Virus record (IMG/VR): IMGVR_UViG_3300005747_000273
Coordinates: 1 to 28,287 of that record
Strand: one strand, 5' to 3'
Length of the DNA stretch: 28,287 nucleotides
Origin: a virus
The notes beneath the pieces are model-generated. The model searched no databases. It saw nothing but the letters and a program-made list of their open reading frames with translations, and was not told the DNA's origin. The number at the start of each line of letters is the position of its first letter. The stretch's first letter is position 1. The position numbers and the translations under genes are program-made. Shown in pieces: positions 3,763-28,245 of this stretch.

Positions 3763-3768
3763 GTCAAA

Positions 3769-3776
3769 CTATTTAG
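3769..3776 (+). promoter_or_regulatory. CTATTTAG motif upstream of the gp6-like gene
   Basis: The octamer CTATTTAG lies in the 35-base gap between the gp25-like and gp6-like genes, 21 bases before the ATG at 3798, with a GAGGG ribosome site in between. It belongs to a 10-mer, ACTATTTAGT (3768-3777), that recurs exactly at 15056-15065. A second TATTTAG begins 14 bases upstream at 3756 and overlaps the stop codon of the previous gene. The position would suit a -10-like late promoter giving a very short leader. It could instead be an RNA processing or protein-binding site. Function is inferred from position and recurrence only. Confidence 0.45.
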
Positions 3777-3797
3777 TCTTTGTAGAGGGACCATTAA

Positions 3798-5600
3798 ATG
3801 TCAAAACAAAAGAAAACACCTATCAAGTACACAAGCAGAGACTTCGATTCTATCAAATCAGACATCGTTGAGCACGCTAAAAGATTCTATCCAGAACAAT
3901 GGAAAGACTTTACAAAAGGAACAATCAACTCATTGTTGGTTGATTCTGTTGCGTATGTCGGAGATATTCTATCTTACTATCTCGACTATCAGGCGAACGA
4001 ATCATTTATGGATTCAGCCATCGAGTTCAACAACATTCGAAAGCACGCGAGATCAATGGGTTACAAGTTCGCAGGATCAGCCAATTCTTATGGGTTTGTT
4101 TCTCTTTATGTTCTTGTTCCATCAAATCCCGACGGAACAGCACCTGATTTCAATTACATGCCTATTCTTCAGAAGGGATCTTCGTTCACAGCATCAAATG
4201 GTGGAGTTTTTACTTTGACAGAAGATGTTGCATTTGATAATCCAACAAATGACATGGTAGCAGCAAGATTTGATTCCTCAAACGGCCAAACGACCCACTT
4301 TGCAATCAAGGCTGTTGGTCAAGTTGTTTCTGGTGTGTTCTCGAGAATTACAGTTGACTTAACAAATGCAACCTTCGAGAAATTCAAGAGAATCCGAGTT
4401 GGAGATGCAACATTCAGTGAAGTTATTTCAGTTAAAGACTCAGATGGCAACACTTACTATGAAGTTGACAATCTTGCTCAAGAGGTCGTGTTCAAGGAAA
4501 CAACCAATAGAGAAGCAGCAAGTGAAGGCGTAAGATCGATTTTAAAGCCCTTCGTAGCCACGAGACGCTTTGTTGTTGAACAAGACGACACTGGAACCTA
4601 TCTACAATTTGGATTTGGCTCAGAGGACTCTGAGGCTGAGGAAATAGCTGATCCAGCAAAAGTATTTCTAGAGATGCATGGAAAGAACTATATCTCTTCT
4701 CAAACATTTGACCCGTCAAGACTTATCGGAACAACTAAAATGGGCATTGCTCCATCAGGAACTACATTGACAGTTGTTGCAAAAGCAAACACAACCGACC
4801 TATCTAGTGCACCATCAAACAGCATTACATCCGTTGGAACTGCGAGAATGAAGTTTCCATCGGAAATCAATCTCATTTCTTCGAAGAAAAGCGCAGTTGT
4901 CAGCTCTCTAGAGCTTACAAACGAGGAGCCAATCATCGGTTCCGCCGAGAGAATGACAAACGAAGAATTAAAGCAAAGAGCCAAGAGCTACTATGCAACT
5001 CAAGGGCGCGCAGTGACTCGTCAAGATTATGAATCTCTCATTTACAACATGCCAAACAAGTTTGGAATCATCAAACGCGTGAGCGTTGTCAATGATCCAT
5101 CTGCGACAAACAGGAGAATGGCAATTTACATCACATCTGAAGGAGATGACGGAAAGCTTGTAAATGCAAACGACAGATTAAAACAAAACATTAAGAATTG
5201 GCTATCTCAATACAAGTCTCTCAATGATGTTATCGACATCTATGATGCTAAGATTGTAAACTTCGGAGTAGACTTTAAGGTCTCTGTAGATCCTCAGTTC
5301 TCTAATGAAAACATTTTATCCCGATGCAACGCCGCAATCAGGAACTATTTCTCGAACCAATCTTACATCGGAGAACCGATTTACATCACGAGACTTTATG
5401 CGATTCTCTCAAAGGTCGAAGGAGTCGCAGATGTAAAGAAAGTGAATGTTTATCAGAAAACAGGTGGAGACTACTCAATGGTCAGGATGAACTTCAAAGA
5501 AGCAATGTCTCAAGATGGAACGTTCATTAAGACACCTAAGAATGTAATTATGGAATTAAAATATCCAACCAGAGACGTAAAAGGAGTATTGGTCAGATGA
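3798..5600 (+). CDS. Baseplate wedge protein, T4 gp6-like / baseplate J family
   Basis: The product has 600 residues, close to the 660 of T4 gp6. It would form the wedge dimers that make the continuous inner ring of a contractile baseplate. The N-terminus matches the family signature I know from T4-like phages: YTSRDFDSIKSDIVEHAKRF at residues 11-30, then a Leu-Val-Asp-x-Val-Ala-Tyr-Val-Gly-Asp-x-Leu-Ser-Tyr-Tyr-Leu-Asp-Tyr-Gln-Ala-Asn-Glu run (about 47-68). Residues 380-440 carry a typical baseplate-J middle (NEELKQRAKSYYATQGRAVT, then DYESLIYNMP). The start has a GAGGG ribosome site 10-14 bases upstream and a CTATTTAG motif before that. The stop overlaps the next start as ATGA, so translation is probably coupled. 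The next gene encodes a virion protein as well, as expected for a baseplate cluster. Confidence 0.93.
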   Translation: MSKQKKTPIKYTSRDFDSIKSDIVEHAKRFYPEQWKDFTKGTINSLLVDSVAYVGDILSYYLDYQANESFMDSAIEFNNIRKHARSMGYKFAGSANSYGFVSLYVLVPSNPDGTAPDFNYMPILQKGSSFTASNGGVFTLTEDVAFDNPTNDMVAARFDSSNGQTTHFAIKAVGQVVSGVFSRITVDLTNATFEKFKRIRVGDATFSEVISVKDSDGNTYYEVDNLAQEVVFKETTNREAASEGVRSILKPFVATRRFVVEQDDTGTYLQFGFGSEDSEAEEIADPAKVFLEMHGKNYISSQTFDPSRLIGTTKMGIAPSGTTLTVVAKANTTDLSSAPSNSITSVGTARMKFPSEINLISSKKSAVVSSLELTNEEPIIGSAERMTNEELKQRAKSYYATQGRAVTRQDYESLIYNMPNKFGIIKRVSVVNDPSATNRRMAIYITSEGDDGKLVNANDRLKQNIKNWLSQYKSLNDVIDIYDAKIVNFGVDFKVSVDPQFSNENILSRCNAAIRNYFSNQSYIGEPIYITRLYAILSKVEGVADVKKVNVYQKTGGDYSMVRMNFKEAMSQDGTFIKTPKNVIMELKYPTRDVKGVLVR

Positions 5601-6970
5601 TTAAACGTTATTATGCAACAAAGGACAACACGATCACCAATGCTTTTCGCGAAAGTTTAGCAACAGATGGAAAAGATGCAAACATGGGAGCCTCGGACAT
5701 CCTCGAGGTTTTCTCAATCTATGGTCAAGTTGTGGACGAAAACGAGAACTATTCTCTTGAAGAATCAAGAATTCTAATTGAGTTCGACATCTCCGAGATT
5801 CAATCTGACATCACGGCAGAGATTGTCGATCCCAATGCTAAGTTTTATTTGAGATTGTTCAATGCCGAACACGGTAGAACCTTGCCTTTAAACTTTGAAC
5901 TAGAGATAGATACTGTAACTGCCGAATGGGAAGAGGGAACCGGTCTTGATATGGAGCAATATCAGGACTTAACCTATGGAAAAGGCTCGAGTTGGAATGA
6001 AAGCGGTGCTGGGAACCTATGGATCACGAAGGGTGGCGACTTCACTGGATCTCCAGTAACTGCTGAATTCGAAGAAGGCACTGAAGATCTGGTAATAAAT
6101 GTTACCAGTTTCGTGTCGAACTGGTTGTTGAATCCATCTAGTAACTATGGTTTGATTATTAAATTACCAGCAACAGCTACAGCACAATCTCGATCTTATT
6201 ACACAAAGATGTTCTATGCCCGAGGAACAAGCAACTTCTTTAAGAAACCTCTGCTTGAAGCTCGATGGAAAAGCCAATTGACAGATCATCGCAAGACCTT
6301 TCTTTCAGATGTCTCGAACAACATTTACCTTTACAATGAAGTTCGAGGGCAGCTGACAAACCTTGACGCCCCTGTTACTGTTAAATTTTACGAAGAGCTT
6401 GGTGGAACAGAAATTGCTGCAACCACAACTGTAACATCAGTCGAAACAGGTGTTTACGAGGCCTCTACGACCCTTACAACGGCTGCTAGCACAATCTATG
6501 ACGTTTGGTCCGCTGACGGAACAGAAGTCGTCACAGGATCAATTACGGTCCTCCAACAAGCACCCTCTACAACACCGAGCGTTAGCGATCTCGTTGTATC
6601 TGTTTTGAACAACCAAGACGTTCACTATGTCAATCAAACTTCTCGCTTCTATTTTTACATTCGAGAGAAGAATTGGTCTCCGAACATTTACACCGTGGCA
6701 ACGTCGAGACCGGATTCAAAAGTCTACGACAAATTAATTTACAAAATCTCCAAAGTTGTAACAGACGAGATCATCTTCGACTACGACATGACGGATGAAG
6801 CAACTACTCTTTCCTATGACTCAAACGGGAACTTTTTCGATCTTGACATTAGTATGTTAGAACCTAATTATGTTTACGAAATCAAGTTAGCTCTATTTAA
6901 TGTAATGACCAAGAGCTATCAAGAGCTCCCTTTCAAGCATAGATTTAGAGTGGTAAATAATGAGCATTAA
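5597..6970 (+). CDS. DNRLRE-like virion structural protein
   Basis: This 457-residue protein starts at an ATGA overlap with the gp6-like gene and has an AAGGAG site at 5581-5586. The first 235 residues resemble a DNRLRE-type beta-sandwich: an N-terminal KRYYATKDNTITNAF strand, ILIEFDISEIQSDI (about 56-69), an EWEEGTGLDMEQYQDLT loop with a following SSWNESG, and a VTSFVSNWLLNPSSNYGLII segment. DNRLRE domains occur in carbohydrate-binding and cell-surface proteins. Residues 255-320 look like an Ig- or fibronectin-like strand set (PVTVKFYEE, VETGVYEASTTL). From memory, proteins with this N-terminus follow gp6 in other marine myoviruses. A baseplate-peripheral or surface-binding role is inferred. 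No catalytic motif is visible. The gene overlaps the next start by 11 bases. Confidence 0.75.
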   Translation: MIKRYYATKDNTITNAFRESLATDGKDANMGASDILEVFSIYGQVVDENENYSLEESRILIEFDISEIQSDITAEIVDPNAKFYLRLFNAEHGRTLPLNFELEIDTVTAEWEEGTGLDMEQYQDLTYGKGSSWNESGAGNLWITKGGDFTGSPVTAEFEEGTEDLVINVTSFVSNWLLNPSSNYGLIIKLPATATAQSRSYYTKMFYARGTSNFFKKPLLEARWKSQLTDHRKTFLSDVSNNIYLYNEVRGQLTNLDAPVTVKFYEELGGTEIAATTTVTSVETGVYEASTTLTTAASTIYDVWSADGTEVVTGSITVLQQAPSTTPSVSDLVVSVLNNQDVHYVNQTSRFYFYIREKNWSPNIYTVATSRPDSKVYDKLIYKISKVVTDEIIFDYDMTDEATTLSYDSNGNFFDLDISMLEPNYVYEIKLALFNVMTKSYQELPFKHRFRVVNNEH

Positions 6971-9900
6971 AGATTTATTCGGTAAGACTTCACCAAACCT
7001 AGAAGACACAGTTCAAGACGTCGAAAGCATCGCATTTGTAGAAGAAAAGACGAAAGCGGATCAAACATACCATCCGCAAATCGACTTCTCTGATCCCGAG
7101 AACTTTGTTTATTACGGCTCTGCCGAGCTTTACTATGATGCTGCCATTCGTCGAATCTACGAAGACTATCCCTATGATGGCTCAAAAGCTGAACAAATTG
7201 CTTTTGAAGAGGCTGCGTCTTCTTTAGAGCGTTGGGTATTCGAGAATAAATATCCAAAGACCACAGGGCATATCCAACTTGGAACAACAGGTGACATGGG
7301 TGCACTGAATGGAACGTGGAGAGAGACTGGGACTCCAGAATATATTCGTGTTTGGGGAGGTCTACACACAGATAGCTCAACTAACTTAAAAGATAAGTTT
7401 GAAAAATCAGCAAAATTTGATGAAGACAAGAACAGAAATCAAAACTGGAATTGTGATTTCGATAGAGGAGTTACGATTGAGTTTTTCATGAAGCTCCCAC
7501 AAAAATCTGTCTATGAACAAAGAGTGATCTTGGATCTATGGAATGGAAAATCTGGTAATGAATCTTCTAGATTTTTACTATATGCCGTTGCTCAAAATGG
7601 AAATACTAGTCTCTTCGCAACCATAGAGGCAAATGGTGCATTCGTAATTACCCCAGTTATTGACGCAAATCAAGTTTTTGACGACTGGGGTCATATCGCA
7701 ATTACCTTATTTAATGAGGGCGGAAGACTAAAAGGATTTGGATTCATCAATGGTGAACTCAATAGAGAATTTGCATTCGGTTCAACATATGAATTTACAG
7801 GTCGAATGGATGCTTTTATTGGAGCATTGCAAAAACCTGTCGGTACAAGCGGCGACATTTATGGCGGTAAGCTCCAAGGGTCTCTTGATGAGTTTCGCTT
7901 CTGGAAAACGAAACGAACTGCTCGACAAATTAAACTCAACTGGTTTCAGCCAATCGGTGGTGGGGCAAACACTGACGATGCAACATCGGATCTTGGAGTT
8001 TACCTCAAGTTTAATGAAGGTATCGTTGGAAACAACCAAGTCGACAATGTTGTTCTCGACTATTCTGGCCGTTTAGCAAATGGAGTCTGGATTGGTTACG
8101 AGAACACGACAAGTGCTCGCTCAACAGAATCGGCAATGGAATCTCTAGGTTATACCGAAAAGCCATCGCCAATCATTTACAAGGACCATCCGTCCGTTAA
8201 AGACCTGATCTCCGAGATGCAAGATAAAGGTATCTCTTACGATGCAGACCGCGGACAATCCTTTTTCAGATCGATGCCAACATGGCTTCAAGAAGAGGAC
8301 AATGGAAACCTTAGATTGTTTGCTCAGATTCTCGGCTCTTACATGGATACACTCCATGTGCAGATCAAAGAGTTGACCGAACTCAAGACGAAGCGCTATC
8401 CAATGGAAGGCGTGAAAGCATCGACGATGGCTGCCGATCTTTTGAAAGATAAGGGATTTATGATCTCAAACATGTTCGAAAGTAACGAGGTCTACGAGAA
8501 GCTAGCAGCTATCAACCTGAATGATGCTCAGTTTGAGACCGATCTTGCCGAGATCAAGAACATTATCTACACAAACATTTACAACAACCTCGAGAAGATC
8601 TACAAAACCAAAGGAACCGAAGGTTCGATTCGCAATCTTATCCGTTGCTACGGAATTGACGACGAGCTTATCAGATTGAATCTCTACACAGACGGCGGAA
8701 CTCAATACTTCACAGATAAGTCTAGACCAACATCTGTCAAGAAGAAGTATCTTAATTTTAACCACCCAGATCGATTTGTCTCAACCATTTTCCAAGCGGA
8801 AACGTCAACAAGCACCAGATCATTCATTTCAGCGCCCGATGATGGGTCTAGAATCGCTTTTACGCTAGAGGCAGACATAGTAGTGCCCTACAAGAAAGAA
8901 GTCGGCGAGACAGGCTATTTTGCTACTCCATTCCTATCATCTTCCATCATGGGTTTTCACGAAGCTGCTGACACAGGAATTAACCCTTCGTCGAATTACT
9001 CTTGGGGCAACAATGGAAATGATCTCCAAGTCTTCCTTGTGAAAGACTCAGAAAGTTCTCGGCATGCAAAGTTCGTAATGAAGAATCAAGACGAATCTAT
9101 CTACCAAGAGTCCGACTACATCTATGACATTTACGAGAACGAGCATTATAACGTTGCTCTCCGCATAAAGCCAAAGACTTATCCATATGCTGGAGGTGTC
9201 TCGAACACAACACCAGAGTATGATGTTGAGCTTTACGCTGTTACAACCAACTTCGGAGAGATTGAAAACGAAATCATCCTATCTCAGACAATCACCAATC
9301 AAAAAGGCTCAGATCTCTTGTCTTACGCCAAGCGCGTTTACGCAGGGGCTCACCTAGTAGACATGGATGGTGCTGTTCAAGAACATTGCGACATCCAAAT
9401 TGGCGGTGTTCGCGCATGGCTTGACTATCTCGACAACGATATCATCCTCAGTCACAACAAAGATGTTTTGAACTATGGTCAGAACTCATCTATTGATGGG
9501 TCAAACCTTTATCTCATTGATGATGTTCAGATTCCAACTCAGGATTTGACAATTCTAAACTGGGATTTTGACACAGTTTTGACATCTGATTCTAGCGGAG
9601 AGTTCGAGATCGAAGACATTACCGGTGGACATGATGATGAAATTTATGGCTGGATTGACAACATCATTCGCCGAGAACACAAAGCTAAGGGGTCAAATTT
9701 CCCTCTGAGCGACTCTTCGTTCGTTGGCTATGAGTTTATCCAAGCTTACAAGAAACAGCTCCCAGAGAGCGCATACGACGCTCAAAACATCTATATCAAA
9801 GGTGAGCAAGAGATCAACTTCTCAGATGACGATGATGTTAGCGATAATCTATTCATCATGGAGAAATCACCTGCTGCTTTGATTTCCGAGGAAATGCTGA

Positions 9901-12900
9901 AGTCATTCTCGACAACATTAGAGTTCGCCAACCTCATTGGTCGCCCTGTTGAGAGATTCCGTTTGGAATACAAGGATTTAGCCAAAGCAAGACAATTGTT
10001 CTTCGATAAAGTCGAGAGCGATATGGATTTCGACAAGTTCTTTGAATACTTTAAGTGGATTGACTCAAGCATCTCATCGATGGTTAACCAATTGATTCCA
10101 ATGTCCGCAAACTTCGCCGGTGGAATCGTTGATGTTATCGAGCCGCATATGCTCGAGAGAGACAAATACCAACGACAAGTTGGGCTTCTCAACACTGTTA
10201 CGTCAACTGAAGCATCCATTCGAGGCGTTCAAGAGTTGAAGTACAACTGGAGAGTTGGACATGCTCCATTATCCGGAGACGAAAATGAAAACTGCTTATG
10301 GCAGAAAGAACGCAAAGAGAATGATGTCACTGAAGAAGAGGCGATCCGTCAAGTTCTCGTGAGACAAAACGATCAAGAGTACACGAACCCCGTGGTTCTA
10401 TCGGGCTCAACTCAATTGATCTCTGGTTCTTACGCTGCGCGTAGATTCTCGAGACCTTATGCACTAGACATTGGTTTCAGTAACTCAATTCATGGCGGGA
10501 TTAACTATTCCGAAAATAAAGATCGAGACATGATCACAACACAAATCAATCCCGGAAGTCAGACTCAATCTGGTGCTCCCGAAAATGTTGTTATTGTCGG
10601 AGCGGGCGAAGGACTTGGAACTAACTCCCCAAGCTCATGCACGGATTCTTTCAAGCCCGAAGAATTGACTAAGACGAAGTTTGACGGCTTCGCTGTTCTA
10701 GGTAAGGAATCGTTTTTATCGACTCTCGAACCTAAGAGCGAAGAAAATCAATACTCTTATAGGCAAAAAATCTCTAAAATTATTCCCGGAAACATCATCT
10801 CATCAAGCGTCAATTCTGGCTACTCTAGCATCATCAATAGACCGGGCGCAGATGGTGGTTTTGCCGAAGGATATAATCTAGTAAACTTACATTCCGACAC
10901 AACCGATATCACTAATGAGATTTCCATTCAAGGTCCGTTTACAAACGAACACGTTGGAGGAAGGCAGTCTAGACACGTTCACCTATTGGAAGGTGCAGAT
11001 CCTGCTCTAGGCTACATCACAAGTTCTTATGATAGACCGGAATTTTGGAACATCTACTTTGGCGCTTTAAACCCAGACACATCAAACGATGGAGCAATCG
11101 GTTTCACAGGGCCAGATTATTCTGTTGGAACGCTCGACTATGATTCTAGAAAAGCTGTTTATTATCGAGAAGAACGAGCAAAGCGTCCCGTAAACATCAA
11201 GAACATCCAAACAATCATTGGCACTGGTTCTCACGGAAACTTCACTTACAACTACGAAGTCTTGTCAACATTCGGAGATCAAGGTTATTATCTGAGAAGG
11301 AACGAAGACCTGTTGCCTGACATCATTGCTGATGCTTTGCCGGAAACAACGAATTACCACACACTCATTGCGCAAACATCCTCAGCCGATGGAAACTTCT
11401 TTGGCGGAGAAAGCAATAGACAATATTCATCTACAATTACAACCCCTGACACACCAGCTGTTCAAGCCTCTGGTGGCGAATTTAGAGTCTTTGGTCGAGA
11501 CGATGTAATTGATGGAGAAGCGATTGATCTTGATGGAACATTTTACGAAATAAATACAAATGCCTACGGCGGAGTCTCAGTTTCAACCGGCGGAACGGAC
11601 ACTCAATTCTACAACAACTTTAAGACAGCATTGGAGACTCAATTTCCATTGAATGATTGGATCGTGAGCTATCAAGAGACGGTGACAACAATCCCTGGTA
11701 CATTCGATGCAGTTCAGTTCGACGGGAGGATCAATGGAGTTGGCCTAGAAACCACTGGACTGGGACCTTTGGAGTTTTCTGATTCAGAGCTTACGATTTC
11801 TTTATTTTGGAACACCCCTGCTAACGATGGAACTCAGAGGTACCTGTACTATGAAGACCCAATTAGTGCAACTCACCCAGAAGGGAGGATGTTGTATTCA
11901 ACAGGCGCTGGAACTTTGGTCTTCGCTTTGCCCTATGTAGACAATACAGGCACTTATCGATTAGCTGCGTATCAATTGTCGAACTTTAATCAAAATTATT
12001 CTGGGCAGCTAAATCATGTTGTGGTAACTACAAATGGTTACATCGGTGCACTTAATCTTACCAGTCTTTACATAGATGGTCAACATGTTCCATGGAGCAT
12101 AAATGCAAATTGGGTAAATACCGAGCCTATTAATCCGGGATCTCCTGTTCAGACAAACTTTTTAAGCATTGGGTCGAAAGGCAATGCTTTTTATCAAACA
12201 ACAGGGATATCCAATTCCGGAGCACCTGCTTTGATTGATAACTTGGTATTGATGAATCACCATTGTACATCTCAGGCAGAAATCGACGAATTATATAATA
12301 ATGGAGAAAGAAACAATCCATCAAACCCTGGATTTATGAATTTAAATATCGCAGATGTTACGCACTGGTTTACTTTTGAGGAAACTGGCGATGGATTCAC
12401 GAACGGAGACACTATTCACAACGGAGTGACCAGAGCTTACGTAGGAGATCTATCTGTCTATGATGTAGAAAATGCCACCTTTCCAGATGGTAGAATAATA
12501 AAACTCTTTGAAGAAACTGGTTCTGAGGCTGTTTTCTCAATTGACCCAACTGCTGGTGGGACATATGGAAACTTCTATGTTGCAATTGACGCAGCAATTA
12601 CTTCATTTGACAACCCACAGTCCTCAACTGGTGGAGAGGACCTGATCCCAGGGGAAACTACCTTAGGTGAAACAAACATTACCGATACTCAAGACAGATC
12701 CACAGGATCGGCAAATGTTATCCGAACTCGTTTCTCTGCACCGGGTGGCCCCGAGGTCAACTCTTCTGGCTATCTAGACGTTACAACTCAGCAATACTCC
12801 GTTCACAACTCTCTGAACTATCGAAACTTAACTGTTCGCGCAAGCGGATCTGGTGAAGATGATAGAATTCGAGTCAACTCTCACGCCGGTCGTAGAGAAG

Positions 12901-15041: not shown

Positions 15042-15048
15042 ATAAAAC

Positions 15049-15060
15049 ATAGTGCACTAT
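15049..15060. repeat. Perfect 12-bp palindrome in the gap before the 1,413-residue gene
   Basis: ATAGTGCACTAT is a perfect dyad with no spacer and overlaps the first four bases of the CTATTTAG motif at 15057. Without a loop it is unlikely to act as an RNA terminator. It could be a binding site for a dimeric DNA-binding protein, or chance in AT-rich DNA. Confidence 0.4.
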
Positions 15061-15064
15061 TTAG
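15057..15064 (+). promoter_or_regulatory. CTATTTAG motif upstream of the 1,413-residue gene
   Basis: Second intergenic copy of CTATTTAG, inside the 10-mer ACTATTTAGT that is identical at 3768-3777. It is 25 bases before the ATG at 15090, with a TGGGAG ribosome site in between. It lies in the largest intergenic gap of the window (48 bases). A promoter-like or processing role is inferred from recurrence and position. Confidence 0.45.
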
Positions 15065-15089
15065 TTCAGATTACTTTTGGGAGTTTTAA

Positions 15090-18000
15090 ATGGCGTTTTT
15101 TAAAGATTTTTTAGGTCTGAATTATTATATATATGACCCGGTCAGTTCAGCTGGTGAGTTGTCCAAGGAAAATCTCATAGGGTATGATTTTGATGATCAA
15201 TTCTCCTATGCCGATGAGCTTGGATCTGGGAATCCAAATATAACCTTGAAGGTGCTACACGACCCAGAGCACACAATGGTTCTTCTCAATCTTCATCGCA
15301 ACGGCCCATATGGCTACTCCACATGGAAGCAAGTCCGAGTTTCTGATAATCATCTAACAAGGTATCAGCGAAAATCTAACATCTTCACTTATATCGAAGA
15401 ACACGATGGAAGATTCGGAGAAACTAGATCCTTCGTTGAACCTGTTGTCGTAGACTCCTATAAACCAGTGTCTCTCGTTGGAGAAGTAAAGGTTTATAAT
15501 GATAAAACTAACGAGTTCCAAAACCGATCCGTCGAACTCAAGACGTCGTTTGGAAACGAAACCGCATTCTTCGCAAACTCGAAGGTCAATGATTACTTTG
15601 AGACAATTGCTGAAACAGACGAGAATTATGAGCAAATGAAGGACCTTTATCTCGATGGAGGCCTTGAAGACGAAGGGTCGCCAATTGACTCTTTTAACAT
15701 GTTTGTCTACCGACAGTCTATCTACCCTAAGCAACAATATGCTTATCTTGATGAGACAAGATCTAGAAGAAGCTATGAGAATCTATTTTGGAGGTCAAAT
15801 AGGGCAGATAGAAATAGATCAAATGTTGATGGCGGCTTTGGAATAGACATAGCAGAGCAATCTATTTGGCCGCTCGACACTAGGGATGATTTTGAAAATA
15901 GAACAATACCAGAAAAAGTTCCGGGATTCATTAACGGCATAATTCTGATTCCTGATTATTTTGAATTTGATATTGGTGGTGGCATTGCTGACAACTCTGA
16001 GGGTTCACCTGGTGTTTTGCAGAACAGATATTCATCCTTTACTTTGGGAGGTTACTACGGACTAGCAGATGGACGACCTCAGTTGTTTTCCAACCCTGTA
16101 CCATCACAAAATAGCATGAGAAGTCGACTATCTTCTTCTGTTTGCTACTATAGATTACACACACTAAAGAACTATTACTCTCCAATCAATCCTAGTGGGC
16201 CCAAATTGCCAACACAAACAGAATTAAAAGCAGATTTGGAAGACCCGTCGTCATATCCATTCTCCAACTTCACCGGATCTCTTTTTAATGGTGACGCCCA
16301 TTGGGACGCTTTCAAGCAATCTGGAAAAGAGCCGTTTTATGATTCATATGAAGATTTCTCTTTAGAGACAAGAGTCAAAGGCAAGGGTTATACTAAGATC
16401 CCAGAATTTAAAATAAGCAACCATGTCGGCTTCTACCTAAAAAATTCATTCAAATCAGAGTTGCCAAGCGTCTTCGAAATGTCAGGAGGGTTGGGTCAAT
16501 CCATTGTCACCACGGAGACAGATGGTTTTTATGAAATATTATCAACGTCAGACTTTTTAAAGCACTTTGATTTGGTAAAAACAGACCACAAAGACTTAGC
16601 TAGCGAAGGAATGCTGACACTAAAATGTAAGGCAGTGAAAAAGTTTCTTCCTTACGAAGGTTTTTATCCAGCAGAAAGAACAGTAGCATTGGCGAAGCAA
16701 TTTTACGAAAGCTACAAGGACGAAATTCAGTCACCAAGAAGAGTAACGGATTGGGACGTATCTGAGCCGGTCGATTATGAACAATTTGCAACAAAGCCTC
16801 TTATAGAACCTCTTTTTTCACCAGGAATCTTATTCAATACAATTAAGGCGGGTGTTGCATGTGATTGGCCACTAATCGAATCAGACGATTATTTCAGCGA
16901 ACAAATAGAATATAACGAAGGAGCATATGTACACTCCACAAGAACATATGCTAATGATGTGGGTCAAGGACCACTATACGGCGGACCAAAATATCAAACA
17001 ACAGAAAATAATGTCCTACTAAGCCACACCAAAAGAACTATAAACCCAAACACCTATGTTTCGACTTATTCTACTAGAATTCCTTTCGAAGCTTTAGTCG
17101 AACCACAAGCTTATTTGGCAAACAAAGCTCTTGTTTTACAAGAGCCTCATGACTTTGCTTATGGCGCAGCGACTTTTGAAACTAAATGGAATGGACAGGG
17201 AGACCCTCTTTATTCAAAAATGGCATCAAACTTTTTAGCAGAAGTTCCTGATTTCTTTTTGCAAGGAGAAAACTTTAAAACACTGAGCTCTCTAGAGGAA
17301 CAGAGTCCGGAGTTTGGAAATGCCATTTCTGGTAATTTTTATATAATGAGAATTAAAATGACAAAAAGTCGTAACAAATCGAACCTAGAGCTTGGTGGTT
17401 ACGATGGTATACCGGTCATTCCTCCTCAAAACGTCGTAGATCAATCTGGTGTTCCTGGTACAAATCCAGGAGATGGAGATGATAAGTTTACAACTAGAGA
17501 AACTTTGACAATGTACTCGCGACCAACAGCGTTTGGGCCTCCAACTATCGGAGACGGGAAGTACCATGAAGGTAACGGAGTTGAATCTAGACTTGGGTCA
17601 TCATGGGGCTACAACTTCCCGTATACACCGCCGCATTACCACGGAGAGTCATGGTGCGATGTTATCTTTTATGCAAAAGAAACCAAAAAATATACTTTAG
17701 ATGAGATAATCTCTCAAGCAAAAGAGTATCCATATTACACAAGATACTGGCACCCATCTTTTCAAGATGCCATGAGAGACCTGACTGGTTATGCTGACGG
17801 TAACGCAACGAACGGAGTAGGAAAATATAGAGACTACAACCCCTTAGGGACGGAAAATACCCCTCCATGGTACAAAATGATAACAGAACTAAGCGTAAAA
17901 GGAACCAACCTCAACATTGAGCCAAAAGAAGATGATTGGATTGGCTCTTCGACATGGCTGAACCAAGATGATCTCTATGAAGAAAACACCCTCAAATGGG

Positions 18001-19331
18001 CAAAGCCAGCAAAGACCATAGGAATTGCAAACATAGAAAGGATAGCTTGGCTAAATTCAGGACCACAAAGCGGTTTCCACATAAACAACAATGCAATGCA
18101 TCTTGATTCATCTGTCAATCTTTTTTCAAAAGGGACTATCAAGACAATAAAATCTGCAAATCTAGAACAAGAAATAGAAGTAGCTTCTGGTGATACCGTC
18201 AAGGGTAAAACTCGCTGGATTATTCAATCAAAATTTGAAACTCCAATTCTAAACTTTAATAAATACAATGACTTAGATGCTAGTGGATGCACTCCTCCAA
18301 GTTTTGCAAAGTCTCAAGTCCCTAGGGGAATGTGGCATCAATATGGAGACATACCAAGTGGAAACGAAGGAATATATCTACAAGTGACTGATATGCCAGA
18401 TTCTTGGCTTCGTGGCGCACTTGGTGTCGACAGAGGTAGCACCAAAATCAAGTCTCTGGCTGATCTTGTTGGGTTCTCCAAAGACAAAGTTCGCCTTGGT
18501 GAAGTTGCCAACGTCAAGGAAATCTCGGAAGCTGTTGTCGCCGTCCCATTCATCGAAAAAGATGGAACTCGTCAGTTCTTCTCGATTCCTCGCGAGGACA
18601 TCGATTCATGCATCAACTCATCTTTATTAGAGTCATCTCCCGGTAACTTCGCAGCTGGACAAACTCCAAAAGCAGGAGACTCCGTTTATCAAATGGTAAA
18701 GAAGATGCAGAAGTATGTGTTCCCTCCATCAATGGACTTCGTTCGTTACAAAGAGATCGACCCATTCGCGATGTACATCTTTGAGTTCAAACACAACTTG
18801 ACAAAGCAAGACCTTGCCGACATTTGGCAAAACCTTCCTCCGGAGATCGGAACAAGAATGGAAGAAGCCGAAGCAACAATCTCTCACGAATTGCTTGCTC
18901 ATGAACTTCTTGGTGGAGGCTCGGTTGTTAAGAACGGTGTTCTCGACGACAATGCCGAAGGAAACGGAATCCCATCAAACATCCAATGGATGATCTTCAA
19001 GGCAAAGAAGCGAGCAAAGACAAATTACTTCGACAAAGTCGTGGCAAAGAAAGGAACAACCGAAGACACATCTTCTCAACAACTTGAAAATGCTCAAGGT
19101 CAAACTGGTGATGATCTTGGAGTTACTTACAACTGGCCTTATGATTTCTTTTCTCTCGTAGAACTAGTTAAAATAGATGCTGAAGTTACGTTTGCAAACA
19201 TCGAAAACGACGACAAAGGACAGAAAACTATCAAGAAAGTTGAAAAGAAAAATCCTCTTGAAGTCTCGAAAACTCGCGCTGCTGCTCGTGGCATCAACAT
19301 TGGAAGAGGAAAAGGTAAGCCCAAGAAATGA
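15090..19331 (+). CDS. Giant virion structural protein, apparent continuation of the upstream giant
   Basis: The product has 1,413 residues and a good TGGGAG ribosome site. The N-terminus has FLGLNYYIYDPVSS and, at residues 69-81, HRNGPYGYSTWKQ. Near residues 1025-1056 comes TIKSANLEQEIEVASGD followed by WIIQSKFETPILNF (from 1043), then RGMWHQYGDIP. After residue 1120 follow SLADLVGF, KEISEAVVAVPFIEKDGTRQ, KKMQKYVFPPSMDFVRYKEI, KQDLADIWQNLPPEIGT and SHELLAHELLGGG. I recall this series from very large structural proteins of marine T4-like phages, where these blocks follow the NVIRTRFSAPGGPE region in one longer chain. Here that region is in the preceding gene. Residues 250-1020 are more divergent and ATA-rich, and the last 35 residues are strongly basic. 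The function is unknown; a tail or baseplate location is likely. The stop overlaps the next start as ATGA. Confidence 0.78.
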   Translation: MAFFKDFLGLNYYIYDPVSSAGELSKENLIGYDFDDQFSYADELGSGNPNITLKVLHDPEHTMVLLNLHRNGPYGYSTWKQVRVSDNHLTRYQRKSNIFTYIEEHDGRFGETRSFVEPVVVDSYKPVSLVGEVKVYNDKTNEFQNRSVELKTSFGNETAFFANSKVNDYFETIAETDENYEQMKDLYLDGGLEDEGSPIDSFNMFVYRQSIYPKQQYAYLDETRSRRSYENLFWRSNRADRNRSNVDGGFGIDIAEQSIWPLDTRDDFENRTIPEKVPGFINGIILIPDYFEFDIGGGIADNSEGSPGVLQNRYSSFTLGGYYGLADGRPQLFSNPVPSQNSMRSRLSSSVCYYRLHTLKNYYSPINPSGPKLPTQTELKADLEDPSSYPFSNFTGSLFNGDAHWDAFKQSGKEPFYDSYEDFSLETRVKGKGYTKIPEFKISNHVGFYLKNSFKSELPSVFEMSGGLGQSIVTTETDGFYEILSTSDFLKHFDLVKTDHKDLASEGMLTLKCKAVKKFLPYEGFYPAERTVALAKQFYESYKDEIQSPRRVTDWDVSEPVDYEQFATKPLIEPLFSPGILFNTIKAGVACDWPLIESDDYFSEQIEYNEGAYVHSTRTYANDVGQGPLYGGPKYQTTENNVLLSHTKRTINPNTYVSTYSTRIPFEALVEPQAYLANKALVLQEPHDFAYGAATFETKWNGQGDPLYSKMASNFLAEVPDFFLQGENFKTLSSLEEQSPEFGNAISGNFYIMRIKMTKSRNKSNLELGGYDGIPVIPPQNVVDQSGVPGTNPGDGDDKFTTRETLTMYSRPTAFGPPTIGDGKYHEGNGVESRLGSSWGYNFPYTPPHYHGESWCDVIFYAKETKKYTLDEIISQAKEYPYYTRYWHPSFQDAMRDLTGYADGNATNGVGKYRDYNPLGTENTPPWYKMITELSVKGTNLNIEPKEDDWIGSSTWLNQDDLYEENTLKWAKPAKTIGIANIERIAWLNSGPQSGFHINNNAMHLDSSVNLFSKGTIKTIKSANLEQEIEVASGDTVKGKTRWIIQSKFETPILNFNKYNDLDASGCTPPSFAKSQVPRGMWHQYGDIPSGNEGIYLQVTDMPDSWLRGALGVDRGSTKIKSLADLVGFSKDKVRLGEVANVKEISEAVVAVPFIEKDGTRQFFSIPREDIDSCINSSLLESSPGNFAAGQTPKAGDSVYQMVKKMQKYVFPPSMDFVRYKEIDPFAMYIFEFKHNLTKQDLADIWQNLPPEIGTRMEEAEATISHELLAHELLGGGSVVKNGVLDDNAEGNGIPSNIQWMIFKAKKRAKTNYFDKVVAKKGTTEDTSSQQLENAQGQTGDDLGVTYNWPYDFFSLVELVKIDAEVTFANIENDDKGQKTIKKVEKKNPLEVSKTRAAARGINIGRGKGKPKK

Positions 19332-20272
19332 CATTCTTTGACAAAAAACAAGATGTGCTTAAAATTGAATTGACTCCCTATGGACGCTCCTTGTTGTCCA
19401 ATGGGAAGTTGATGCCAAAGTATTATGCATTCTTTGACGACGACATTGTTTATGATATCTCCGCAATCGGAGGAGAAGAGACTCAAGATCAAATCAAAAA
19501 CCGAATTCTCAGCGAGACTCCTCGACTAAGACCTCAGAGGGACGTGGTCTCTCCGGAGAATCTAATCTCGAACTTCGAACACGGTGAGAGCTCCTCTCGT
19601 CCATTCTCGCAGGTTCAATTAAACTACCTAACCGAACCCCTTGGAACAAGTGACGGAACGGAAAGAAACGCATCCTCGTGGCATTTAACCACTATTCTCG
19701 GAGAAATTGATAACGTCAATTCAACCTATGAGACATCGGGTTCTTATCTTCGACAAATTCCTCAAGTCGATATGACAATTGAATACACAATGCAGGTTCG
19801 AAATGTGAGAGACGATTCTCCCGTTCGAGGTCAAACAATCTCTCCATCTGTTCCAGCTTCGGACATCTTTGATGATGGAACTTATCTTGAGATCATGGAC
19901 GAACAAATCATAACCAGAATTATCGAAGAGAACGGATTTACACTTAAGGAAGGTCTCGAGATCGAAGCATTCATTTATGAAGACGAAGAAAAGATTATTC
20001 CACTAAAGATGACTCCGAGAACAAAAGCTATCGTTAATGACATTTTAATCGATGTGGATGAAGACTCTCTTGTTGAAGTCGACAAGACTTATCTTGAATA
20101 TTGGATGTCAATCTTTTATGATGAAGACATTCCTGATTCTGATCTATGTAAAGGAATCTCGAAACTTAAGAAAGAAGACATTCTTCTCGACATTGACGTT
20201 GAGTGTCCAGATGAACAAGGTGTTGATTTCGATATCTATCGAACTCGTGTCACCGATGTGGAGAAATGCTGA
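19328..20272 (+). CDS. Virion structural protein with an LTPYGRSLLSNG N-terminal module
   Basis: This 314-residue protein starts at an ATGA overlap with the giant gene before it. The first 45 residues read FFDKKQDVLKIELTPYGRSL, then LMPKYYAFFDDDIVYD. This pattern, L-T-x-x-G-R-x-L-L followed by a D-D-x-I-x-Y turn, recurs at the N-terminus of the protein at 25054, and I recall it from several marine phage structural proteins. The middle holds MTIEYTMQVRNVRDD, probably strands. The C-terminal 130 residues are very acidic (for example DILIDVDEDSLVEVDKTYLE) and end in a Cys-containing DVEKC. No enzyme motif is seen. It is probably a minor tail or baseplate component; this is inferred from context. 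Confidence 0.75.
   Translation: MTFFDKKQDVLKIELTPYGRSLLSNGKLMPKYYAFFDDDIVYDISAIGGEETQDQIKNRILSETPRLRPQRDVVSPENLISNFEHGESSSRPFSQVQLNYLTEPLGTSDGTERNASSWHLTTILGEIDNVNSTYETSGSYLRQIPQVDMTIEYTMQVRNVRDDSPVRGQTISPSVPASDIFDDGTYLEIMDEQIITRIIEENGFTLKEGLEIEAFIYEDEEKIIPLKMTPRTKAIVNDILIDVDEDSLVEVDKTYLEYWMSIFYDEDIPDSDLCKGISKLKKEDILLDIDVECPDEQGVDFDIYRTRVTDVEKC
20260..20263 (+). promoter_or_regulatory. Ribosome-binding site that decides the 20272 start
   Basis: GGAG ends two bases before an ATG at 20266 but eight bases before the in-frame ATG at 20272. The second spacing is normal and the first too short. The 20272 ATG also overlaps the upstream stop as TGATG, the usual form of coupled re-initiation, so it is preferred. 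Confidence 0.6.
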
Positions 20273-23028
20273 TGGCTATTGAGAACGTTGGACTTGGCAA
20301 ATTGCCGAATGTTTACTTTGAAAAGATAACTCTCGAAGATCACGATGAAAAGTCATTTCGAGTTGTTCCTCATTTGATTGTTCTCGACGAACTTGACGAG
20401 TCAAGCTTTATCTGGTCGAATGATCCTCTTCTATCCGGCTTCATGAAGATCGCTTTGATCTCGACATCGAATCCTGAGATGAGAGACGAGTTGACAAATG
20501 GCGAAAATGTCCATCCGACAATGCTTAAAATGTCGCAAAATTGGGACAATCAGAGCATGCTCCATGTTTATGGATATGGAGATCTCCACAAGTCCGAAGA
20601 TGCCGACGACAAGCACTTTAAACTAAAAGCACCCATTGTAAAGCCCAAGGATGCCTCTGAATTGGCTTTGTTTGCTTACACCTACATTGACCATAAGGAA
20701 CTCTCAAACTACCTTCACATCAAGCTTACGGGGCTCCTATCGCACTACATGGGACCTGTTGCATCTGAGATTGTGATGAATGGTGGTGTGATTCCAAAAA
20801 CCTTGAATCTATTTAGAAAGCCAAATAAAGAAGTCTGGTCTGGACCTGTCCATCAGATCGACGAAGAATGGTACTCAGGCTCTGAACCTGCCGAAGACAA
20901 CTTGAAGCTTACTCGGGAGCGAGTTAAGAACTCAAAAATAATCGACTTCAGATCAGCGACATTAGCGAATAGATCATCGAAGATGTTCCAAAATCTTCCA
21001 ATTTTCTCTGACGTTCACTACTCTTTGAACTCAGATGCTGACTTATTCGGCGTTTTCTCGATTGATATGAAGAACCTTGTTTTATCAAAAACAAAGTTTG
21101 GAAAGCAAATCTATGGACTCGATGATGCTTTGTTTTTAGATGTCGTCAACTCAATGGCTGTTAATTCTGCTGAAATCTACAGACGGCAAGTCAGATTCCG
21201 TCGCCAAACAAACTATCTTGGAACTGCGATGTTCACCAAAGAAGATGTATTGCCGAGAGAAATGGTTTCTTCAATGGCAGATTTAAAAGAATTGCAAGTT
21301 GCAAATGATGACTTTATCAAAACTTACAGTTTCAATGACATGGATAAGAACGAAGGAGATCGCGGAGAATTCATTTATGAAGCTAAAATGACTTTTATTG
21401 ATAGAACTCAAGAACTTATTGAAAACTTAATATTAAACATAAAATTAAACTTAAATGGCCTTAAGGACGTCGTCAGACGACTTAACGCACCCAACAATTA
21501 CAACGATGCTCTCGATTCACTAAGGGCCGCAGAGGTTAGTCCTGCCATCGTTACAAATTATATTGAAGATTATTACAGATACGTTGGAATCCTAAAGGAC
21601 GTAAATCAACAAGATCTTCAGCAAATGGTTGAAGCAAAAAAGACTTCCTTTAATTCTTCAAACTACAAAAGAAGCTATGGTCTTAAATTTATTGATGAAT
21701 ATCAAAAACTTTACAATATCTTTGTTTTACGTTTCGGCGTTTCTCCGAAAGAATTAAGAACCAATAAAGGGAATCCATCACATGGTTATCCTCCAAACGT
21801 TGTCGAGATCTCAAAGACATTTAATGAGCTTGTTAAGTTCAATAATGTAGAATCCTCTTACGACGTCCTAGGGAAGACTGACAACAAAGAAATTTTAATC
21901 ATTGAAAGAGAAGAGATGGAAGCGAGAGCCGATAAAGAAGTCGAGAGATTCTTTGACACATCCAAGGCTGTTTCGTCCGACGACATGTTCGCAATCGATG
22001 ATAATGACTCGGAAGCACTTAGGGATCTCGGAGCATCAAAGATGATGTTTCTTGCTCCTCTGGCATTTCAGTTTCAAGGACAAAAGATGTCAACCGAAAA
22101 GATCGCCGACATTGACACGGATAAAATTTCAACTAAATTCTTGGAATCAAAGAACAAAAAAGCAGAACGAACAGTCTCATCTAGATCAAAAGCTCGAACA
22201 AATCGCAAACCAATGAAAGCCGAAACGACAAGTAAGCGAAAAACAATGAGAAAATCAAGATTCAAAAAGGACAGGTTTAAATTTAACTTTAGACCAGTTG
22301 CTTTAAAAATCAATCAAATCAGCAAAAAGAGAAATGATTACCGTGAATCAGCAGAATATCTCGGAGATAATTCTGAATTCGTAAACATCGAGACAAAAAC
22401 AGATCGTTCGATTGATGCCAAAGACACAAAGCAGGCATTGGTGCGATTCTCAATTGCAAATGAGGTTTCTGTCAAAAGAAGCAAGAAGCAATTCGACTTG
22501 ACTGAGAAAGGAAGTTTCTATGAAAAACTGAAGGCTTCAAAGCATTATGACCCAGAGAAGCTGAGGAAATTACCTTTGGCAACTAAAGCGTTGTTCAATT
22601 CGAGATCTCGAGCGGCAAAAAACAACATCCATGATTCAGAGTCCGATATCTTAAAAGAAGTTGACACAAAAGTGGCAACAGAAATGATCTTCCATGCAAA
22701 TCAAAAGATTGAAGCGTTGCACGGATTCGAGAAGAATGAGAATGGAGAATCAATTTTGTCAAAGCCGATTTGGGTTGAACTAACCGACGAGCTTTTAGAT
22801 GAAAGAATAGAAGTTTTGTGTAGAATGTCCTACGTAGAGGATGCAGCGACAGGACTGATTCCCGCTGAAGAATTTAAGATGGCAGTTTTGAACTCAACAT
22901 TCATTATCAAAGGAAGCGGGATCACGCCGGAAGACCCATTCGTTATCCCAGATGCCGTAGAAGAATTGCCTGAGGTGTTGGAAATATCTTACACGACAAG
23001 CAACATTGTAAAACAACCAAGGAGCTAA
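20272..23028 (+). CDS. Large structural protein with a VWSGPVHQ motif and a basic central segment
   Basis: The ATG at 20272 is preferred over one two codons upstream because it has proper ribosome-site spacing and a TGATG overlap; this gives 918 residues. The N-terminal third (about 1-240) has PNVYFEKITLEDHDEKSFRV, DESSFIWSNDPLL and VWSGPVHQ at 188-195, followed by a GS-containing turn and KIIDFR. I recall this series from uncharacterised tail-region proteins of marine myoviruses. Residues 340-520 are helical and charged. Residues 621-691 carry 27 Lys or Arg against 5 Asp or Glu, an unusually basic block. The final 200 residues are mixed. No catalytic site is evident. The gene lies between two other structural genes and ends three bases before the next start, with GGAG for that gene at its own 3' end. 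Confidence 0.78.
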   Translation: MAIENVGLGKLPNVYFEKITLEDHDEKSFRVVPHLIVLDELDESSFIWSNDPLLSGFMKIALISTSNPEMRDELTNGENVHPTMLKMSQNWDNQSMLHVYGYGDLHKSEDADDKHFKLKAPIVKPKDASELALFAYTYIDHKELSNYLHIKLTGLLSHYMGPVASEIVMNGGVIPKTLNLFRKPNKEVWSGPVHQIDEEWYSGSEPAEDNLKLTRERVKNSKIIDFRSATLANRSSKMFQNLPIFSDVHYSLNSDADLFGVFSIDMKNLVLSKTKFGKQIYGLDDALFLDVVNSMAVNSAEIYRRQVRFRRQTNYLGTAMFTKEDVLPREMVSSMADLKELQVANDDFIKTYSFNDMDKNEGDRGEFIYEAKMTFIDRTQELIENLILNIKLNLNGLKDVVRRLNAPNNYNDALDSLRAAEVSPAIVTNYIEDYYRYVGILKDVNQQDLQQMVEAKKTSFNSSNYKRSYGLKFIDEYQKLYNIFVLRFGVSPKELRTNKGNPSHGYPPNVVEISKTFNELVKFNNVESSYDVLGKTDNKEILIIEREEMEARADKEVERFFDTSKAVSSDDMFAIDDNDSEALRDLGASKMMFLAPLAFQFQGQKMSTEKIADIDTDKISTKFLESKNKKAERTVSSRSKARTNRKPMKAETTSKRKTMRKSRFKKDRFKFNFRPVALKINQISKKRNDYRESAEYLGDNSEFVNIETKTDRSIDAKDTKQALVRFSIANEVSVKRSKKQFDLTEKGSFYEKLKASKHYDPEKLRKLPLATKALFNSRSRAAKNNIHDSESDILKEVDTKVATEMIFHANQKIEALHGFEKNENGESILSKPIWVELTDELLDERIEVLCRMSYVEDAATGLIPAEEFKMAVLNSTFIIKGSGITPEDPFVIPDAVEELPEVLEISYTTSNIVKQPRS

Positions 23029-23030
23029 TC

Positions 23031-25013
23031 ATGGCAAAACTTAAAATAGCAGATTTCAGAACCGATTCGCTATTGCAAGCAGCAGGTAAGGCGAAAGTTG
23101 TAACTCAAACAGGCAATATTGATAGTAAAATTGAAAACTCCAAAGATGACAAAGTCAAAGTTCATCTGATCTCAAGCGAAATGAGGGAAGATGGAGAAAA
23201 CATTTATGAAGTCACTAAGATCAAAGTCACAGCAGTTGATGGAAAAAGATCTACGATCTCCAGAGCCTTGAGTAATGGAAGATCCGCCACAAACCACGTC
23301 ACATCAGTTGCAAAAATGGTTGATCTTAACTCGATCGATCAAGGTAACATAACTCAAGCGACACCAACTTATTCAATCGATGCTCAATTTAACTACGTCT
23401 CACAAGACTACGACAACCTTCAAGCTAACATTCCAGAGCACAACCTAAACTCATTCTTGGACGAATGCACAAAAGATGAGATTTTGAACTTCAAGAAGCG
23501 TAAGAACTCTCGATTGACAACATTCTCAAGAGGAGATCAGATGAAAAACTTTGTTGTTCCTCATGGATCTCAAGATAAGTTTTCAAAATCAGCACCTTAC
23601 AAAGTGCGCATTGGAATTAATGATGGAGTCAAAGGAGACATTTCTCAATTCTTGCAGAAAATCTCAATCTACGATGAAGTGTTGAACGATTATTTGCAGT
23701 CGGAAAAAACATCTTTACAATTCAACATCCAAGATGGAAGATTCACAAGAGAAGAAGTTGAGATCATGGGCTACGATATCACGTCATTCTTCAATTCAGA
23801 CGTTGAAATTGATCTAGATAACTTCTATGGTTTAAATCAAGACCTTAGAGGCTCAAAAATGAGCCTAGAATTGCGCAAGCATCTTTTCAAGGGCTATCTT
23901 AAGGGTGTAACCAAAACAGGCTTCAGAAGCTTCTCAGAGCTTTTAAATGGCATTGAATGTCACAAAGAGGCACTATGTTATTCGTTCGAGAAATTTAATG
24001 AGTTTGAGCTTGACTCAACAAGACTTCAAAACATTTATGCACCAGCTGGTTCATTGGCTACAGCGTTTAGCGATACTCAAGTAAAATATGGAGCGACTTA
24101 TCTCTATAGAGTTAAGGCTCATTACATGATTGTAGGGAACTCTTATTCTTACAGGGGCGTTCGTTATTACGAAGAAGACGATGTGACTTACGCAACTGCT
24201 GAGGTTGTTAACAGACCAAGCATCATGATCGTTCCGATCGATCTTTTCAGTGTCTCAAAATCTATCATCCAGCCACCTCCGATGTTCCCTCAAGTTGTTT
24301 TTAAGACGGAGAACAACTCAAACAGAGAAATTCAGATCTATTTGTCTCCGACAAAGAACGGAATCAAGTCAGACTTTATTCAAATTACAGAAGCAGATGC
24401 TGAACAAGACCAATTGATGCGACAGTTCTTTTCGACCAAAGAAGGTAAGTTTAAATTTCACACAGCTGTTGACTCAGGTCTCTACGAAGTCTTTAGGCTA
24501 TCTTATCCTCCTAAAACTATTGAAGAATTTGCAAATGCAAAACTTGGAGAAATAAGAATGCCTTATCGATCAACTGATGCGATCTTTCGAGATATGGTCG
24601 AGAGCAACGAAGATTACTATTATATGTTTAGGCAAATCAACGAAAAGGGTTTGGTGTCAAATCCAACCTCAATCTTTAAAACAAGACTGATTGTTGATGC
24701 TGATGATGCGAAAGTTATGGTTGAGACTTACGAGTTTCCAAAGGTAATTGTTAGCAAACCAAGAACTGAGTTTAAATCAATGATGCAAATCAAGCCATCT
24801 GTCGATCAGATTTTATTCAACGAGTCGCAAGATGCTTTGTTCAATAAAACTTCACTGAAGGGAACAATCAATGATCTTAAGCTTGGGATTCAACAAGAGT
24901 CTGTTTGGGGTCGAAAATTCAAACTTCGAGTTCGCTCAAAGACATCGGGCAAAATGATTGACATCAACATCAATTTCGAACTAACAAAAAACAAAACAAA
25001 AGAAGAATTCTAA
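23031..25013 (+). CDS. Virion structural protein with a possible fibronectin-like region
   Basis: This 660-residue protein has an AAGGAG ribosome site inside the end of the preceding gene. Residues 310-375 contain CHKEALCYSFEKF, then LQNIYAPAG, DTQVKYGATYLYRVKAHYMIV, a pattern typical of a fibronectin-type-III-like sandwich with its tyrosine-rich C/F strands. A second sandwich may cover about 410-560 (VVFKTENNSNREIQIYLSP, YEVFRLSYPP, NEDYYYMFRQINEKGLVSNP). The end reads WGRKFKLRVRSKTSGKMID, then NINFEL, a closing motif I recall from related phage proteins. No signal peptide, membrane segment or enzyme motif is seen. It probably forms part of the tail or baseplate; its partner is unknown. Confidence 0.75.
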   Translation: MAKLKIADFRTDSLLQAAGKAKVVTQTGNIDSKIENSKDDKVKVHLISSEMREDGENIYEVTKIKVTAVDGKRSTISRALSNGRSATNHVTSVAKMVDLNSIDQGNITQATPTYSIDAQFNYVSQDYDNLQANIPEHNLNSFLDECTKDEILNFKKRKNSRLTTFSRGDQMKNFVVPHGSQDKFSKSAPYKVRIGINDGVKGDISQFLQKISIYDEVLNDYLQSEKTSLQFNIQDGRFTREEVEIMGYDITSFFNSDVEIDLDNFYGLNQDLRGSKMSLELRKHLFKGYLKGVTKTGFRSFSELLNGIECHKEALCYSFEKFNEFELDSTRLQNIYAPAGSLATAFSDTQVKYGATYLYRVKAHYMIVGNSYSYRGVRYYEEDDVTYATAEVVNRPSIMIVPIDLFSVSKSIIQPPPMFPQVVFKTENNSNREIQIYLSPTKNGIKSDFIQITEADAEQDQLMRQFFSTKEGKFKFHTAVDSGLYEVFRLSYPPKTIEEFANAKLGEIRMPYRSTDAIFRDMVESNEDYYYMFRQINEKGLVSNPTSIFKTRLIVDADDAKVMVETYEFPKVIVSKPRTEFKSMMQIKPSVDQILFNESQDALFNKTSLKGTINDLKLGIQQESVWGRKFKLRVRSKTSGKMIDININFELTKNKTKEEF

Positions 25014-25021
25014 AAACAGAG

Positions 25022-25029
25022 CTATTTAG
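25022..25029 (+). promoter_or_regulatory. CTATTTAG motif upstream of the 320-residue gene
   Basis: Third intergenic copy of CTATTTAG, 24 bases before the ATG at 25054 in a 40-base gap. An AGGAG ribosome site lies between the motif and the start. The flanks differ (GCTATTTAGG here, ACTATTTAGT at the other two). The same distance to the start in all three cases suggests a shared function, possibly a late promoter element. Confidence 0.45.
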
Positions 25030-25053
25030 GGAAGAAATATTAGGAGAAACACA

Positions 25054-28216: not shown

Positions 28217-28245
28217 TTGACATACTCCTTTTGATATGTTATATT
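28217..28245 (+). promoter_or_regulatory. Strong sigma70-type promoter reading out of the window
   Basis: TTGACA (28217-28222) is followed after exactly 17 bases by TATATT (28240-28245), one base from the -10 consensus, with TG at 28237-28238 forming an extended -10. It begins six bases after the last stop codon. It would let unmodified host RNA polymerase transcribe the next genes, as early phage promoters do. The prediction is from consensus only; AT-rich DNA raises the false-positive rate. Confidence 0.6.

Follow-up and report, generated by a model that had tools for sequence, protein, structure and literature searches.

What does the short sequence CTATTTAG do in the few sizeable gaps of a virus genome in which the genes are otherwise tightly packed? 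The window, meaning the whole 28,287-base virus record that was analysed, carries its genes on a single strand. Only three gaps between genes reach 35 nt, at 3763-3797 (35 nt), 15042-15089 (48 nt), and 25014-25053 (40 nt), and the remaining gaps are all 13 nt or shorter. The first-pass annotation had noticed the 8-mer in these three gaps and read it as a -10-like element of a phage-specific late promoter. Two of its genes, gp25 and gp6, show by their sequences that the window is the baseplate region of a myovirus in the T4 superfamily. The phage collection held no near DNA relative of the window, and among cultured phages the closest were Flavobacterium phage immuto and Microcystis phage Mel-JY01, whose gp6 proteins are about 30% identical to that of the window. 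Each of the three gaps precedes the first gene of a unit (Table 1). The first 637 aa of the 1413-aa gene gave no PHROG match, and the first 85-104 residues of the 320-aa gene are conserved in immuto and Mel-JY01.

By exact match, CTATTTAG was found four times in the window, always on the plus strand, at 3769-3776, 15057-15064, 20809-20816, and 25022-25029. The expected number for both strands was 0.71, and 0/100 dinucleotide shuffles reached four. These results agree with the first-pass annotation on the copies in all three largest gaps, on the number of such gaps, on the spacing from the 8-mer to the ATG (21, 25, and 24 nt), on the 10-mer common to the first two gaps (ACTATTTAGT), and on one further copy inside a gene, at 20809. 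That coding copy specifies Leu-Phe-Arg, and the closest relative has TTATTTAG instead. It looks fortuitous because it is absent from the closest relative, and we rejected it as a functional site for lack of conservation. The 76-nt noncoding contig end (28212-28287), which the earlier annotation had not counted, contained no CTATTTAG copy.

A one-mismatch copy, TTATTTAG, was also observed in the window at 3755-3762, 14 nt upstream of the first box, where it includes the gp25 stop codon. CTATTTA occurs inside a gene at 6893-6899, 67 nt upstream of the ATG of the 2693-aa gene (6960-15041), for which it could be a putative extra start. A further coding CTATTTA lies at 1912.

Table 1. Positions of genes, predicted promoter elements, and related features in the window and in relatives (relatives named by contig).
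Feature	Position	Strand	Remarks
gp25	3343-3762
Late promoter box ACTATTTA before gene 6 (predicted)	3768..3775	+	Exact match; conserved in gene 6 relatives; predicted +1 at 3781 (T4 numbering), leader 17 nt, Shine-Dalgarno GAGGG
Baseplate wedge gp6-like protein (gene 6), 600 aa	3798..5600	+	Opens first unit; phrog_6, E 3.6e-31
Late promoter box ACTATTTA before 1413-aa gene (predicted)	15056..15063	+	Exact match; box in 5/12 ortholog family members; predicted +1 at 15069, leader 21 nt
1413-aa gene	15090..19331	+	Opens second unit
Late promoter box GCTATTTA before 320-aa gene (predicted)	25021..25028	+	Exact match; box in 9/15 family members; predicted +1 at 25034, leader 20 nt, Shine-Dalgarno AGGAGA
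320-aa gene	25054..26016	+	Opens third unit; no family match
Sigma70-like promoter, TTGACA-17 nt-TATATT	28217..28245	+	Contig end; separate from late element
tRNA-Ala(TGC)	L075:6014-6085, L079:15455-15530, L141:10023-10098, L068:14648-14723		Box 17-18 nt upstream
Second sigma-profile match in G005	~59479, reverse-strand offset	minus	E 5e-7

Searches with gp6 and the 320-aa gene gave 60 loci. Counts were made on 12 related contigs of 44-210 kb, with genes called by a simple script. Because these contigs are related by descent and some of them overlap, their counts are not independent events, and distinct sites are used where stated. Upstream alignments of the relatives showed that the box is retained as the sequence around it changes. 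In the 12 contigs, CTATTTA occurred 286 times on the gene strand versus 41 times on the other, and in most contigs it was one of the highest-ranking intergenic heptamers. The strand bias of ACTATTTA extended over whole contigs (for example 23:1, 22:0, and 0:10). With the window included, 133 of the 292 CTATTTA copies stood within 60 nt before a start, versus 5-15 near-start copies for each of nine control (shuffled) heptamers. Upstream of genes, 49 copies were counted versus 1.5 expected in close contigs, and 63 versus 3.1 in far contigs, and the enrichment directly before genes was approximately 20-30 fold. About half of all copies were intragenic, near the chance level. The first-pass annotation had proposed to look at intergenic enrichment and at the distance to the start; enrichment between genes, and also on the gene strand, was borne out across the relatives, and a preferred spacing was found, with a peak at 24-40 nt.

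Most single-base changes of CTATTTA were near background before genes. CTAATTA, in which the fourth base is A instead of T, was the clear exception (8 versus 0.7 and 28 versus 1.7 expected). The base preceding the C was mostly A, and a preference for G following the box was limited to the nearest lineage. As judged from these counts, the conserved unit is [A/G]CTA(T/A)TTA, a refinement of the 8-mer first described. Column information over 106 distinct sites revealed no conserved upstream block, and therefore no -35 box. A second, wider set of 80 loci was fetched with the sigma protein discussed below. Of the 36 distinct sequences before gene 6 in this set, 31 contained CTA[AT]TTA, versus 0.78 in shuffles, and the other five had no box. 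The gene 6 box was retained down to approximately 40% protein identity, and before the 320-aa gene the majority of relatives, with identities as low as about 50%, retained CTATTTA. Some ortholog families had the box in fewer than half of their members.

Ortholog families were defined as reciprocal best hits across contigs. Families with the box and families with a TTGACA promoter were nearly disjoint, the former structural and the latter involved in DNA metabolism. The box families included gp6, the 1413-aa gene, the 320-aa gene, the tail sheath, the head-tail adaptor, and the gene directly upstream of the major head protein; the box-marked head and tail genes were those for sheath, neck, baseplate, and the major-head operon. 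An intrinsic terminator closely preceded 18 of the 120 box sites, versus 28 of 1293 other starts. In six contigs, the box stood 15-18 nt upstream of tRNA-Ala, in one of them in the CTAATTA form, and +1 by T4 numbering fell 3-6 nt upstream of the tRNA. Because tRNA genes lack a start codon, the box cannot be a ribosome signal at these sites, whereas a signal for transcription fits. The box-preceded tRNA-Ala genes are probably transcribed late.

The tRNA sites bear directly on the proposal that the box is an RNA-level leader element, such as a ribosome-binding site, an enhancer of translation, or a site of mRNA cleavage, and not a promoter. The position of the box, no more than a few tens of bases away from start codons, would suit such an element, and the tRNA sites leave some room for a signal that directs processing close to the end of the tRNA. 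We nevertheless consider it unlikely, since the box also precedes untranslated tRNA-Ala genes, varies widely in its spacing to the Shine-Dalgarno sequence, tends to come after terminators, and is mutually exclusive with the other promoter class. The Shine-Dalgarno sequence lay at or after the predicted start (+1) in 90 of 91 protein-gene sites, a result that is partly trivial for distant boxes. Together with the tRNA spacing, this arrangement fits a start one helical turn or so past the box, as expected of a T4-type late promoter. The informative geometry is that boxes fewer than 21 nt from the start were nearly absent, and most of those present stood before a tRNA or a doubtful start.

The other promoter class, TTGACA-17-TATAAT, was found at the DNA primase, SbcCD, and glycosyltransferase families, and in contig G002 also at an exonuclease gene. 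A promoter of this class is present at the contig end of the window (Table 1), and in relatives the class stands before early and replication genes. The corresponding sigma70 pattern, a TTGACA -35 followed after about 17 nt by a TATAAT-like -10, was absent at the three window boxes and at the aligned sites. This result lowers the probability that the box is the -10 of a host sigma (housekeeping with an activator, or alternative) or an activator site, as in the T4 middle promoters. The -10 position is plausible for a host sigma, and TATTTA is loosely similar to TATAAT. However, the box has neither a -35 box nor a second conserved block, clear TTGACA-TATAAT promoters occur at other genes of these phages, and a late-family phage sigma is always present. 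In addition, T to A at -7 and A at -8 were not enriched, unlike in a relaxed sigma70 -10. A role of a host sigma or activator in reading the box is thus improbable.

The T4 late promoter consists of TATAAATA at -13 to -6 with no -35 box (PMC2988020, PMC1524935). It is read by gp55 with gp33 and gp45, both of which are required for full late transcription (PMC2988020, PMC7892883), and in the cryo-EM structure of T4 gp55 on the promoter the bases at -12, -9, and -8 are flipped into protein pockets (PMC7892883). The promoters of T4 and of the present clade share a single 8-bp box, the lack of a -35, a place before late genes, short leaders, and a sigma of the gp55 family. The bases -11 T, -10 A, -7 T, and -6 A are identical, whereas -12 is changed from A to C, -9 from A to T or A, and -8 from A to T. 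It is suggestive that the differing positions -12, -9, and -8 correspond to the three bases flipped by T4 gp55. Among the pocket residues, Y97 is kept as Y, T99 is replaced by S, and H95 by F. Co-variation of pocket residues and box as a simple code was considered and rejected; no such code can be claimed because the cyanophage gp55 shares the F despite boxes reported to be T4-like.

The first-pass annotation was right that the motif differs from that of T4, as TATAAATA was barely present before genes in the relatives (1 versus 0.1 and 4 versus 0.6 expected) compared with the 49 and 63 copies of CTATTTA. We therefore rejected the T4 consensus as a real motif of this clade; the identical pipeline recovered TATAAATA in T4 as a positive control. 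The Aeh1 late box is a/gCTAAATA, with CTAAATA from -12 (PMC1524935, PMC2988020). Aeh1 shares with the clade the a/g and C at -13/-12, the rest of the frame, and a divergent gp55, and differs by AAA at -10 to -8, where the clade has A(T/A)T. CTAAATA was likewise rejected as a real motif here (2 versus 0.6 and 2 versus 3.9 expected). Immuto and Mel-JY01 share full-length sigma homologs and TATTTA boxes enriched before genes, but ATATTTA dominates in them, and immuto has both ATATTTA and CTATTTA. The literature searched gave no description of promoters in these two phages, and no open-access paper was found that names the box as a phage promoter. To call the motif a variant T4 late box is more fitting than to treat it as an element of unrelated origin.

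The gene for the gp55-like sigma lies outside the window, which is too short to contain it. The T4 late sigma family, phrog_234, matched one gene in every contig of at least 120 kb, located approximately 10 kb upstream of gene 6 in close relatives. A profile built from 41 of the sigma proteins matched a set of nine gp55 proteins with E 2.6e-6, over a length of 110 residues. Full-length homologs were found in immuto (E 2e-37) and Mel-JY01 (E 2e-30), and IMG/VR contains at least 540 stretches with a gene for a relative of this sigma. The presence of a gp55-like sigma in these phages, together with the late genes downstream of the box and the lack of a -35 box, supports the -10-like late-promoter reading made in the first-pass annotation. 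Contig G005 (210 kb, the most distant) showed a second, weaker match to the sigma profile (Table 1). Sigma relatives were also seen on the short contigs L279 and L280, from metagenome-assembled genomes of Actinomycetes and Flavobacteriales; these are probably phage contigs binned with their hosts.

The sigma has about 230 aa, compared with 185 aa in T4, and its helical C-terminus is conserved. In L073:8707-9423 and its equivalents (G001-G008 and G010), the C-terminal part, KKAIYLYLRELTGLNTKQIV..., is unseen in T4 gp55. Pfam gave Sigma70_r2 alone, below threshold, and a PDB sequence search with the sigma profile gave nothing. Foldseek with two AlphaFold models of the sigma gave nothing significant (best E 0.03); sigma factors were at the top of the first non-significant list and prominent in the second. 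As these hits were not significant, no claim is built on the fold search. The T4 cofactors gp33 and gp45 were recognised in T4 only. The gp33 family (phrog_254) recovered T4 alone, although a distant form could be missed, and the gp45 families (phrog_223 and PF02916) recovered T4 and gave no convincing match in relatives, although distant versions could escape. One weak gp45 match in G007, inside a 1158-aa frame, was unconvincing, and a bacterial beta clamp was not recognised in the relatives. The C-terminal domain of the sigma was considered as a gp33 homolog and rejected, as it has no sequence match to T4 gp33.

A reader other than a sigma would be a phage-encoded RNA polymerase. Such enzymes exist in some large phages, and sub-threshold matches to the single-subunit family PF00940 were obtained in frames of about 530 aa in L276, L277, and L278. 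However, 0/10 records passed the cut-off of the single-subunit family, a multi-subunit polymerase was not found, and the box has merely 7-8 bp, which makes this explanation highly improbable. Chance, which three copies in AT-rich window gaps might have suggested and which the first-pass annotation had already thought unlikely, is practically negligible, as 200,000 gap shuffles placed copies in all three gaps 0 times and in two gaps once, and the box is conserved and enriched in relatives.

CTATTTA is therefore very probably the -10-like box of a phage-specific late promoter, read by a phage gp55-like sigma. A T4-type late promoter with recoded specificity, common to a large clade, is well supported by the sequence comparison. 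The element, its conservation and placement, its late-gene association, and the missing -35 were seen in the sequences, as was the sigma in relatives; that this sigma reads the box, the exact start, and the late timing we infer. The phage gp55-like sigma would bind the host RNA polymerase, and the complex would read [A/G]CTA(T/A)TTA without a -35 box. Transcription would start about 12 nt past the C, at or just upstream of the Shine-Dalgarno sequence. The resulting leaders on head and tail operons and tRNA-Ala would be short, mostly approximately 9-33 nt.

The box could serve as a marker of late operons across this large, uncultivated group of aquatic phages. T4, Aeh1, the present clade, immuto, and Mel-JY01 form a natural series whose promoters differ at the bases flipped by the late sigma, so that sigma specificity becomes testable residue by residue. 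The T4 literature has asked what accounts for the lack of any known fused late sigma, and whether late transcription is generally coupled to the clamp (PMC2988020). Both questions are touched by the present sigma, which is longer than that of T4 and is not accompanied by a recognised gp33 or gp45. A tentative and rather doubtful possibility is that this large aquatic clade of the T4 superfamily uses a one-piece late sigma, in which a gp55-like region 2 is joined to a C-terminal helical domain that replaces gp33/sigma region 4, with a box recoded at every base flipped by T4 gp55 and no T4-type clamp. If this were true, late transcription in these phages would, for lack of such a clamp, not be tied to replication as it is in T4.
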